Of a stretch of DNA of 60,565 nucleotides, positions 3,233 to 10,882 are shown piece by piece (positions within the stretch are counted from its first letter, which is position 1; the number at the start of each line of letters is the position of its first letter). Under the pieces are notes generated by a model, which saw nothing but the letters and a program-made list of their open reading frames with translations, was not told where the DNA came from and ran no database searches. This stretch comes from Marilutibacter spongiae (GTDB lineage: Bacteria > Pseudomonadota > Gammaproteobacteria > Xanthomonadales > Xanthomonadaceae). The translations under genes and the position numbers were made by a program. The stretch is from contig NZ_JACHTF010000022.1 of the NCBI RefSeq assembly GCF_014145325.1, positions 1 to 60,565 of the forward strand. The letters are read 5' to 3'.

Positions 3233-3422
3233 GACGCGGAGGGAAGGCACGGCTTACCGGGTCTGGACGCATGTGCGATTGACGGCGCGCTCGCATCGCC
3301 GACATTCACTTCCGGGGGGCTCACGCCGCCTGCGCGTGGTTTCCTCGAGCCCGACGGACCGGGCACGTTAAGCTCGGACCCGGCCCGGCACCCTCCGACC
3401 GCCCGGGCCCCGTGGAGACCCG

Positions 3423-7228: not shown

Positions 7229-7588
7229 GATGGGTTTCGCCTTCGGCTCTACCCATCCTACGAAGAGCGAAGCGTTCGTAGCCTCGTAGGATGCGCAGCG
7301 CGAAGCAAAGCCCATCGGCTGTCGTGGCGGACGGTTACGTCGCCGGGGCTGCCGGACGGGGATGATGGGTTTCGCCTTCGGCTCTACCCATCCTACGAAG
7401 TGCGAAGCGTTCGTAGCCTTGTAGGATGGGCAGCGCGAAGCAAAGCCCATCGCCCGTCGGGCGGACGGGTGCGTCGTCGGGCGTGTCGGGCGGCGATGAT
7501 GGGTTTCGCCTTTGGCTCTACCCATCCTACGAGAGCGAAACCGACTCGAGACGCGGTCGTCGTAACGTAGGATGGGTATGGCGAAGCG
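7229..7588. repeat. REP/BIME array, left part (three units)
   Basis: Three units start at 7229, 7364 and 7498, a period of 134-135 bases. Each unit is an inverted pair: GATGGGTTTCGCCTT with CTCTACCCATCCTAC on one side, and GTAGGATGGGCAGCGCGAAG with AAAGCCCATC on the other. GC-rich spacers between units are also repeated (CGTGGCGGACGG type). The last unit is more diverged near its end and leads directly into the RAYT gene at 7639. This is the architecture of bacterial interspersed mosaic elements. Confidence 0.9.
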
Positions 7589-7638
7589 GCTTGGAGCAGC
7601 CCTCGGCCGATCAACCCTCGTTGCAATGGAGGTCAAGG

Positions 7639-8172
7639 ATGACCCGATACCGTCGTGCGTATGTGCCAGGCGCGACCTGGTTCTTCACCGTCAACCTGGC
7701 GGACAGGCGCAGCCGCCTGCTTGTCGACCGGATCGATGTGTTGCGGGAGTCGATCCGCCACGTTCGGAAGAGGCATCCCTTCGCCATCGACGCGATGGTG
7801 GTGATGCCCGACCATCTGCATGCGGTGTGGACACTGCCGCCCGGCGATGCCGACTACTCGTTGCGTTGGCGCACGATCAAAGGGCTGTTCTCGCGGCGTA
7901 TCGCGGAGGGCGAGCGGCGAAGCGCCAGTCGCATCCGCAAGCGTGAGCGTGGCGTATGGCAGCGACGGTATTGGGAACACCTCATCCGCGACGACGAGGA
8001 CATGCGTCGGCATGTCGATTACACGCACTTCAATCCTGTGAAGCATGGATACGTCGCGTGTGCCGCCGCGTGGCCATATTCGACGTTCCATCGCGAGGTC
8101 GAGGCGGGACGGTTAGCGAAGAACTGGGGCGCGGCGGACACGGTAGATCAAGGGTTCGGGGAGCGGTCTTGA
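7639..8172 (+). CDS. REP-associated tyrosine transposase (RAYT, Y1/HUH family)
   Basis: The 177-residue protein is a Y1 HUH transposase of the IS200-like, REP-associated class. The opening YRRAYVPGATWFFTVNL, the HUH motif H59-L-H61 within MVVMPDHLHAVW, and the tyrosine region HVDYTHFNPVKHGY (probable nucleophile Tyr128) are all intact. A GGAGG site lies seven bases before the ATG. Members of this class bind and nick single-stranded REP hairpins; here the gene is flanked on both sides by such repeats, so they are its likely substrates. It appears complete and functional. Confidence 0.93.
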   Translation: MTRYRRAYVPGATWFFTVNLADRRSRLLVDRIDVLRESIRHVRKRHPFAIDAMVVMPDHLHAVWTLPPGDADYSLRWRTIKGLFSRRIAEGERRSASRIRKRERGVWQRRYWEHLIRDDEDMRRHVDYTHFNPVKHGYVACAAAWPYSTFHREVEAGRLAKNWGAADTVDQGFGERS

Positions 8173-8536: not shown

Positions 8537-9670
8537 TCAGGCGCGGCCGTCGATCCAGGTGCCGGTGACCTGCAGGTCGGGGTCGAGGGCGACGAGGTCG
8601 GCGCGGTAGCCGGGCGCGATGTGCCCCAGTTCGTGGCCCAGGCCGAGGAACTCGGCGGGATAGGTGGAGGCCATGCGGCAGGCTTCGTCGAGCGGCAACC
8701 CCAGGCGCTGCACGGTGTTGCGCACGGCGGTGGCCATGTCGAGGGCGGAGCCGGCCAGGGTGCCGTCGGCGGTGCTGCAGCGACCGTCGCGGCAGGTCAT
8801 GGTGACGCCGTACAGTTCGAAGTCCTCGCGCTCGCCGCCGACCGGCGGCATGGCGTCGGTGACCAGCATCATCCGCCCGCGCGGCCGCGCATTGATCGCC
8901 ACGCGCAGGCTGGCATCGTGGGCGTGGTAGCCATCGACGATCAGGCCGCACCAGGCCTCGGGGTCGTCGAGCGCGGCGCCCACGCCGCCCGGCTCGCGGC
9001 TGTTCATCGGCGTCATCGCGTTGAAGAGGTGGGTCACGCCGGTGATGCCGGCGGCGAAGCCCTGGCGCATCGTCTCGTAGTCGGCGGCGGTATGGCCGGC
9101 GCTGAGGATCACCCCGCGCGCGACGAGGTCGCGCAGGACATCGGGCTCGAAGCGCTCCGGCGCCACGGTCAGCAGGGTCTTGCCGACGCCGAGCGACGCC
9201 ACCATCGCCAACTCGTCGGTCCCGGGCGTGTGGAACTTCGCCGGGTCGTGCACGCCCTTGCGCGCTTCGGCCAGGTAGGGCCCCTCGAGATGGATGCCCA
9301 GCACGCCGGGTACGCCGGCTTCGATCGCCGCGCGCACGGCCGCGATCGCCTTCTCCATGACCGCGACGTCGTCGCTGATCAGCGTCGGCAGCAAGCCGGT
9401 GGTGCCGAAGCGGCGATGCGCCTGGGCGATGCGGCGCACGCCATCCACGCTGGTGGCGTCGTTCAGCAGCACGTCGCCGCCGCCATTGACCTGGGTGTCG
9501 ATGAAGCCCGGCGCGAGGTAGCCGCCGCGCAGGTCGACCGCCTCCACCCCCGTCGGCGCAGCGCCGGGCACCACTGCCGCGACATGGCCGTCCTCGACGA
9601 TCACGCACAGCCCTTCGGCGAAACCGCGTTCGGTGAGGATGTGTCCGTTGTGGAAGGCGAGGGAAGTCAT
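8537..9670 (-). CDS. nagA: N-acetylglucosamine-6-phosphate deacetylase
   Basis: The 377-residue enzyme removes the acetyl group from GlcNAc-6-phosphate, giving glucosamine-6-phosphate in the cytoplasm. It shows the amidohydrolase TIM-barrel motifs of NagA: APGFIDTQVNGGG, the metal-ligand segment GIHLEGPYL, AGHTAADYE, THLFNAMTPM and the catalytic-Asp segment LVTDAMPPVGG. Its length is standard. It is probably the last gene of a GntR regulator, nagB-II, nagA transcript. There is no Shine-Dalgarno before the ATG: a heptamer array starts five bases upstream (9676-9758). Confidence 0.96.
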   Translation of the reverse strand: MTSLAFHNGHILTERGFAEGLCVIVEDGHVAAVVPGAAPTGVEAVDLRGGYLAPGFIDTQVNGGGDVLLNDATSVDGVRRIAQAHRRFGTTGLLPTLISDDVAVMEKAIAAVRAAIEAGVPGVLGIHLEGPYLAEARKGVHDPAKFHTPGTDELAMVASLGVGKTLLTVAPERFEPDVLRDLVARGVILSAGHTAADYETMRQGFAAGITGVTHLFNAMTPMNSREPGGVGAALDDPEAWCGLIVDGYHAHDASLRVAINARPRGRMMLVTDAMPPVGGEREDFELYGVTMTCRDGRCSTADGTLAGSALDMATAVRNTVQRLGLPLDEACRMASTYPAEFLGLGHELGHIAPGYRADLVALDPDLQVTGTWIDGRA

Positions 9671-9675
9671 TGGGT

Positions 9676-9758
9676 GGGAATGGGGAATGGGGAATGGGGA
9701 ATGGGGAATGGGGAATGGGGAATGGGGAATGGGGAATGGGGAATGGGGAATGGGGAAT
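9676..9758. repeat. GGGAATG heptamer tandem repeat (11.9 copies)
   Basis: Eleven perfect GGGAATG units plus six bases of a twelfth lie between nagB-II and nagA. On the coding (minus) strand the unit reads CATTCCC and occupies exactly the place of the nagA ribosome-binding site. Inverted copies (CATTCCC on the plus strand) lie at 9799-9826, so the nagB-nagA transcript can form GGGAATG/CATTCCC stems. Such arrays change copy number by slippage. Similar heptamers are common between genes of xanthomonads. Confidence 0.97.
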
Positions 9759-9832
9759 TGTCGGGGCGGGCGGGTCTTCAGGAAACCGGGCGCTTTACCA
9801 TTCCCGATTCCCCTTTCTCCATTCCCGCCCCA

Positions 9833-10882
9833 TCAAACCGTCTCCGTCACCTTGTTGAGGTGCGGGGGCAGGTCGGGGTTGTGGCCGCGGGCGACGGCAA
9901 GGGCGTTGACCGCCTTGTAGAAGGACTGGACGGTCAGCAGCGGGGTGACGGCCGGGTGGGTCGAGGCGGCGAGCGACAGTCGGCCTTCGCCGGGCGCCTG
10001 GCCGGGCATCGCCAGCCATACCGGCGCCCCGCGCTGGCGGAACTCGGCGGCGACCGCCGCGGTACCGGCGCCGGTGTCGTCGTCCTGCCCGAAGGCCAGC
10101 ACCGGGAAGCCGGGGCCGACGATCGCCATCGGGCCGTGCTTGACCTCGGCCGAGGAGAAGGCCTCGGCATGCAGGCCGCTGGTTTCCTTGAACTTCAGCG
10201 CCGCTTCCTGCGCCGCACCCAGGCCCAGGCCACGCCCGAGCACGAACAGGTTGCGCGCCTCGCGCAGGCCGTCCACGACCGGTGTCCAGTCCTGCGACCA
10301 GGCCTCGCGGAGCGCGGCGGGGAGTCCGTCGGTGGCCGCGAGCAGGTCGGTGTTGCCGCTCCAGCGCGCGGTCAGTTGCAACAGGGCGGCCAGCGAGCAG
10401 AGGTAGCTCTTGGTGGCCGCGACACTGCGCTCGGGCCCGGCATGCAGCGGCAGCACGGTGTCGGCCAGGCGCGCCAGCGGCGAGTCGGCGACGTTGACCA
10501 GGGCGACCACGATGGCGCCGGCGTCCTTGGCGATCTCGGCGTTGCGCAGCAGGTCGGGGCTCTTGCCCGACTGCGAGATGGCCACGAACAGCGCGCCCTC
10601 CATCTTCGGCTGGATCGCGTAGACCGAGCCCACCGAGGGCGAGGCCGAGGCGGTCACCAGGCCAAGCGTGGTCTCGAACAGGTACTTGCCGTAGGTGGCG
10701 GCGTGGTCGGAGCTGCCGCGCGCGCAGGTGACGATGAAGCGCGGCGGGTCGGCGCGCAGGCGCTCGACCAGCGCGTCGATGGTGGCGGCATTGGCCTGGA
10801 ACTGCCGCGCGACCGCATCGGCGGCTTCGGCGGCCTCGGCGAACATCAGGGTGTCTTCGGCGCGGAGCGCGCGTGCGGCCAT
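9833..10882 (-). CDS. nagB-II: Glucosamine-6-phosphate deaminase, SIS type (NagB-II)
   Basis: The product (349 residues from the ATG at 10882) has two sugar isomerase (SIS) domains: FIVTCARGSSDHAATYGKY and AISQSGKSPDLL in the first, and FVLGRGLGLGAAQEAALKFK in the second. A C-terminal FYKAVNALAVARGHNPD follows, matching the family replacing classical NagB in Xanthomonas and Shewanella. It converts glucosamine-6-phosphate to fructose-6-phosphate and ammonia. There is no glutaminase domain, which separates it from GlmS. Upstream in-frame starts exist (TTG near 10908, ATG at 10978 inside the regulator gene), but 10882 gives the usual length. Confidence 0.9.
   Translation of the reverse strand: MAARALRAEDTLMFAEAAEAADAVARQFQANAATIDALVERLRADPPRFIVTCARGSSDHAATYGKYLFETTLGLVTASASPSVGSVYAIQPKMEGALFVAISQSGKSPDLLRNAEIAKDAGAIVVALVNVADSPLARLADTVLPLHAGPERSVAATKSYLCSLAALLQLTARWSGNTDLLAATDGLPAALREAWSQDWTPVVDGLREARNLFVLGRGLGLGAAQEAALKFKETSGLHAEAFSSAEVKHGPMAIVGPGFPVLAFGQDDDTGAGTAAVAAEFRQRGAPVWLAMPGQAPGEGRLSLAASTHPAVTPLLTVQSFYKAVNALAVARGHNPDLPPHLNKVTETV

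Follow-up and report, generated by a model that had tools for sequence, protein, structure and literature searches.

A dispersed palindromic heptad element at the nagB–nagA junction of Marilutibacter spongiae, where nagA has no predicted Shine–Dalgarno sequence

The nagB–nagA junction and the start of nagA

The DNA analysed here, referred to below as the window, is a stretch of 60,565 nucleotides from M. spongiae (contig NZ_JACHTF010000022.1). A run of genes on its minus strand encodes a GntR-family regulator, a NagB-II-like deaminase and NagA, and 162 bases separate the nagB stop codon (9833-9835) from the nagA ATG (9668-9670). The best model for the nagB product in a family-model search was NF046059, at 342 bits and below its cut-off of 430. 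Comparisons within the genus drew on seven genomes, one per species; other genomes are given by G numbers (G001 is taken to be L. penaei and G003 L. aestuarii) and individual loci by L numbers. The features of the junction are as follows.

8537..9670, minus strand: nagA, N-acetylglucosamine-6-phosphate deacetylase (TIGR00221, 314 bits against a cut-off of 226)
9671..9675, minus strand: spacer of five bases between the array and the nagA start codon
9676..9758, plus strand: perfect (GGGAATG)11.9 array, CATTCCC as read on the nagB–nagA mRNA
9759..9798, minus strand: loop of 40 bases separating both arms
9799..9826, minus strand: short G-rich mRNA arm, GGGAATG GAGAAAG GGGAATC GGGAATG, convergent with the long array
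9831..9835, minus strand: TGATG at the nagB stop, possibly a relic of the overlapping stop and start of tight relatives
9833..10882, minus strand: nagB-II-like glucosamine-6-phosphate deaminase (SIS family), start uncertain, 10882 or 10978
9842..9845, minus strand: Shine–Dalgarno (SD)-like GGAG within the final nagB codons, also in G003 and G006, absent from G001, G002, G004 and G005

The preliminary description of this DNA had placed 11.9 copies of GGGAATG five bases before the nagA ATG, at the SD position, and inverted copies at 9799-9826 on the same nagB–nagA transcript. Both observations are borne out. Tandem Repeats Finder reports the long array at 9676-9758 with a period of 7, 11.9 copies, a 100% match and a score of 166, the highest of its nine rows for the window, and the short arm, which reads CATTCCC GATTCCC CTTTCTC CATTCCC on the plus strand, consists of three good units and one decayed unit. 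Read along the mRNA, the junction thus comprises a few bases, the four-heptad G-rich arm, the 40-base loop, 11.9 copies of CATTCCC, the five-base spacer and the ATG.

A gene for a REP-associated tyrosine transposase (RAYT) lies at 7426-8172 of the window (NF047646, 202 bits), and REP-like GTAGGATGGG repeats surround it, the flanks reaching from about 7280 to about 8540.

It had also been proposed that nagA is left without a classical ribosome-binding site, and this is upheld by the predicted pairing with the 16S rRNA tail. The 17-base stretch between -20 and -4 of nagA gave +3.3 kcal/mol, the poorest value among 40 window genes, for which the median is -5.05; these are 40 of the 50 called genes, with starts from a rough gene caller, the other ten having been omitted by hand, mostly because they are short or low-scoring. 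The anti-SD letters used in the calculation are presumed ones. The same weakness is seen behind similar arrays elsewhere in the genome: ten other genes that carry an array on the noncoding side within 60 nt of their start gave anti-SD values of -3.8 to +1.9, each of them short of the strength of the window median (ten of the 11 such genes, L005 with its array at 59 nt being omitted). Judging by their first residues, we take several of the array-led genes to be housekeeping genes; the identities of prmA and a YhdP-type gene were checked by family models.

Heptad elements across the genome and the history of the junction

The element is not special to nagA but is one of many copies in the genome. 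The exact 21-base pattern of three units has 45 overlapping matches across the 3.63 Mb genome, as against none for the reversed-pattern control, so that the array is far beyond chance. A search for two units of GGGAATG/C gave 98 overlapping matches, which fall into 29 clusters, 25 of them outside any called gene and four inside genes, where a window-trained codon model was used to call genes in the flanking DNA. Placement is strand-specific: of the 13 arrays that lie up to 60 nt ahead of a called start, 12 have the G-rich strand as the noncoding strand (the exception is L025), and of the 13 that lie up to 60 nt past a called stop, 12 have it as the coding strand (the exception is L003), although convergent pairs enter these counts twice and the entries are therefore not all independent. 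Three-unit arrays are found in two of the six other genomes of the genus, G003 and G006, and in none of the remaining four.

In-frame heptad elements inside coding genes were noticed at L012 (about 2556-2568), L001 (about 2522-2541) and L008 (about 2422-2441 and 3235-3261), the genes being purL, dnaE and icmF (twice), and the arms translate there as GNGES-like and SPFPNP/SPIP-like stretches. Near position 2450 of L016, L018 and L026, GGGAATG arrays adjoin arrays of GGGGATT, GGTGATT and GGTGATG, and the period of seven is kept despite the change of unit. Next to the arms, the loops of many elements (L001-L026 and L217-L231) begin, by eye, with AAAGC or AACAGC and end with GCTTTG/GCTGTT-like letters; these shared loop edges hint at a common core of the elements.

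To place the nag junction among its relatives, we read 110 family nagA loci, namely the top 30 matches plus a further 80 picked with skips from lower in the list, out of 172 matching genomes among 297 searched. The NagB C-terminus is found upstream of nagA in 105 of them. In 87 of these 105 the junction is tight, the presumed nagA ATG falling between -4 and +22 relative to the nagB stop, and in 60 of the 87 this ATG lies at -4 or -1; L180, with an ambiguous start, was entered as tight at 22 nt. The remaining 18 junctions are expanded, with the nagA start at least 50 nt from the nagB stop. Since the junction is tight in most relatives, the gap in the window is a derived state, and it is most likely, judging from this sequence comparison, that the element opened a once tight nagB–nagA junction.

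Predicted SD strength is weaker at expanded than at tight junctions (medians -2.9 and -4.6; Mann–Whitney P 0.001). Four expanded junctions (L111, L131, L153 and L156) possess a fair SD of their own, with values of -6.6 to -11.5; those of the window, G006 and G003 have none. Among the final 25 nagB bases, GGAG occurs at 30 of the 87 tight and 7 of the 18 expanded junctions, and it is absent from the tight junction of L. penaei, so that an ancestral SD in the nagB end must be regarded as unsure.

Convergent heptads were seen by eye in seven of the 18 expanded junctions, L144 and L146 being alike. Their units belong either to the GGGAAT class, as in the window and G006, or to a GTGATT/GGGATT class, and several other expanded junctions carry other palindromes. 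A tree of the nagB C-terminus groups the window with G003 and G006 (99/90) and leaves G001 outside; in a nagA tree, the branching of the window, G001 and G003 plus G006 is not resolved. The simplest reading would be that the element was gained once in a common ancestor of the window's species, G003 and G006.

The accC–prmA junction, at which 22 loci were read and 15 of them showed the accC end, is similar. It carries a GGGAAT element in the window's genome and a GTGATT element in G003 and is tight in G001 and G005; in G002 and G004 it is longer, with no such heptads within the 150 bases read, and in G021, which belongs to another genus, it carries a convergent GGGGACC element (L239).

Correspondence of the two arms between species

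A pattern search revealed seven GTGATT-type convergent elements in L. aestuarii. Six of them map to element sites of the window's genome, where four are of the GGGAAT type and two of the GTGATT type; the seventh, L262, has no match among the window-genome loci compared. The idea of a unit replacement throughout the L. aestuarii genome was dropped, as these two orthologous elements are GTGATT in both species. The four sites that differ, in both arms, are the nag junction, prmA, the rng–yhdP junction and a site inside purL. The purL and rng–yhdP sites in L. aestuarii were found by a search that itself needs matched arms, and the nag and prmA sites by gene order.

At these four sites, with arms picked by eye, arms from the same species pair with a mean of -35.2 kcal/mol, as compared with -18.6 kcal/mol for arms combined across species. 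The own-minus-chimera sum lies between -25.7 and -41.3 at each site, own arms being ahead in sum at all four; in the control with G006, which has the same GGGAAT unit as the window, the difference is -1.9. However, at the nag site the own pair of L. aestuarii (-20.6) is outdone by one of the chimeras (-29.3). Permutation tests of arm matching were not significant, with P between 0.06 and 0.35 for the GGGAAT class (17 elements, nine of them from the window's own genome) and about 0.11 for six nag junctions. The matching of arms within species, in sum, hints at a palindrome that may renew itself as a whole.

In purL, the reading frame runs open through the insert in either species, and the GTGATT-type insert of L. 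aestuarii is at the same place. Because a palindrome is kept in frame within a coding gene in both, a cause at the level of the DNA would seem likelier for the joint change of the arms than selection for an RNA hairpin. It is conceivable, though we regard it as a speculative possibility, that heptad palindromes are self-renewing, both arms and the loop being swapped for another seven-base unit while symmetry and placement are kept, even in frame in purL, either by hairpin-driven copying or by an unknown mobile palindrome, and that genes such as nagA are thereby left with a C-rich leader and no SD. In a search of the open-licence literature, none of the matches listed described GGGAATG arrays in Lysobacter or a change of unit in both arms.

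On its own, the array is nothing unusual in this bacterial family, and it is the comparison across species, in particular the co-variation of the arms, that could matter and deserves follow-up. At four orthologous sites the heptads of both arms differ between species, which opens a direct route to the question of how palindromic repeats form in bacteria and stay symmetrical. SD-free initiation could in turn be tested within one genome, on the dozen or so genes that naturally have a CATTCCC leader.

Readings of the element and comparison with known systems

That the transcript can fold by pairing of GGGAATG with CATTCCC, as had been suggested, agrees with the predicted fold of the window junction (-55.7 kcal/mol, z -4.1). 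Seventeen expanded junctions were folded, L146 being omitted since its junction equals that of L144, and 13 of them have a minimum free energy z of -2 or below, the others being L114, L130, L139 and L193; in L114, L130 and L193, three of the 18 expanded junctions, no hairpin stronger than those of shuffled sequences was found. In the best fold of the window the 45 bases before the start are unpaired, since the long arm far exceeds the short one in number of units. The predicted cost of opening the start region is low in the window (2.2 kcal/mol), G003 (3.9) and G006 (5.1), as against 14.1 each in L138 and L139, 9.4 in L144 and 14-20 in tight junctions, so that an open leader is a trait of this small group and not general to heptad junctions.

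We consider it probable that a dispersed palindromic heptad element entered a formerly tight or overlapping nagB–nagA junction and is tolerated there rather than acting as a switch, with a nagA start that is independent of an SD, coupled to nagB, or both, and with arms that are kept complementary. A convergent heptad pair separates the nagB stop from the nagA start in the window and its near relatives G006 and G003, and nagA would be translated on a largely unpaired CATTCCC leader without an SD, by ribosomes arriving from nagB, or in both ways. The element may be tolerated with its C-rich side facing the start codon, while the G-rich side could be harmful there, which would explain the orientation rule. 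Slippage may alter the length of the long arm, with little expected effect above about eight units, and the arms could stay complementary while the unit changes, most simply through hairpin-templated copying from one arm to the other or through replacement of the whole palindrome at the level of the DNA.

The preliminary description had instead proposed a contingency-type switch, in which slippage of the array turns nagA translation up or down relative to nagB. The array is perfect here at 11.9 copies and numbers about 3.5 copies in G006, so copy number does differ between species, and in Xanthomonas, heptads of comparable composition differ in copy number from strain to strain (PMC8002079). 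Moreover, when the number of full units was modelled from 0 to 15 and at 20 and 25, the natural case being 11, the cost of opening -20 to +13 was 9.3 kcal/mol at 0 units, 3.9 at 1, 12-18 at 2-4, then 8.1, 6.5 and 3.8 at 5, 6 and 7, and 2.0-2.6 from 8 upwards. In this structure model, copy number thus shifts the predicted cost steeply between two and seven units but not on the plateau, where the present length lies and where slippage by one to three units should matter little; the start codon region alone (-3 to +6) costs 0.7 to 2.6 kcal/mol across all lengths. As a like arrangement stands before unrelated genes of the genome and 87 of 105 relatives have a tight junction, we find a nag-specific switch highly improbable, and phase variation was also judged unlikely for the Xanthomonas heptads in the report describing them (PMC4692102).

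A different role for the stem would be that of a bridge, which loops out and brings the nagB end beside the nagA start, thereby preserving translational coupling; there is a precedent for this in phage T4. The stable folds of most expanded junctions, the GGAG kept in the nagB end of the window, G003 and G006, and the arms that differ together between species would all fit such a bridge. However, the exterior distance from the nagB stop to the nagA start is not significantly shorter than in shuffled sequences in 16 of the 17 folds, only L109 being shorter, and in the window it is longer than in most shuffles (P 0.93). In addition, an in-frame palindrome occurs within purL, where a bridge would serve no purpose, and coupling is reported to become weaker as the distance grows and when structure immediately follows the upstream stop (PMC12548453), all of which makes the bridge very unlikely. 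Somewhat better placed, though still rather unlikely, is an effect on the transcript, whereby an intercistronic hairpin or a template-strand G-quadruplex might stabilise the nagB mRNA or pause RNA polymerase and so lower nagA relative to nagB. REP elements tune transcripts in this manner in some operons. The predicted stem is strong, and the long array has, by sequence, enough G-tracts for a G-quadruplex, about twelve of them in the template strand. DNA of GGGAATC repeats forms a quadruplex in vitro, as stated in PMC4692102, but an RNA quadruplex of the long array is precluded by the C-rich sequence on the nagA side of the mRNA.

As for known systems, the closest are the GGGAATC repeats of Xanthomonas (Rehm et al. 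2015; PMC4692102). That report describes (GGGAATC)n or (GGGANTN)n repeats of at least two units, with a preference for four, which are dispersed and mostly intergenic, lie preferentially up to 50 bp from starts, where they occupy the noncoding strand, or from stops, where they occupy the coding strand, form convergent inverted pairs (70 and 75 in two genomes) and vary in length and sequence between species; their function was left open. The heptads described here likewise consist of at least two units, are dispersed and mostly intergenic, occur in convergent pairs with the same heptad core and follow the same strand rule at starts and stops. They differ in that the long array of the window is pure GGGAATG, the GGGAATC unit occurring once, in the short arm at 9806-9812, in that they belong to a Lysobacter-related genus, and in that the class of the unit differs between species in both arms at four sites. 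Copies lie in frame in purL, dnaE and icmF here, and dnaE is among the repeat-associated genes named for Xanthomonas. Related heptads also serve as strain-typing markers in Xanthomonas, namely 5-12 copies of CGATTCC, which is GATTCCC rotated, and 6-18 copies of GGGATTT, with GGGATTC/GGGAATC as variants (PMC8002079); these loci vary in copy number at the strain level, whereas the window array is known from one genome.

REP elements resemble the heptad elements as short palindromes dispersed between genes, and a RAYT gene with REP-like repeats lies close to the window array. However, by reading, the heptad units show no resemblance to the neighbouring GTAGGATGGG repeats. A parallel for the position at the start codon is provided by the TAACTGA heptads of marine Beggiatoaceae (MacGregor 2015), which overlap the ribosome-binding position just before starts, where canonical SDs are rare (PMC4679880). 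Like these, the window heptads occupy the ribosome-binding position in an SD-free leader; the Beggiatoaceae repeats have another unit, occur as direct repeats with two to six copies per set, and no sequence kinship with them is claimed. The window element is thus a member of the Xanthomonas-type heptads, and its SD-free heptad leader finds a published parallel in the Beggiatoaceae (PMC4679880).
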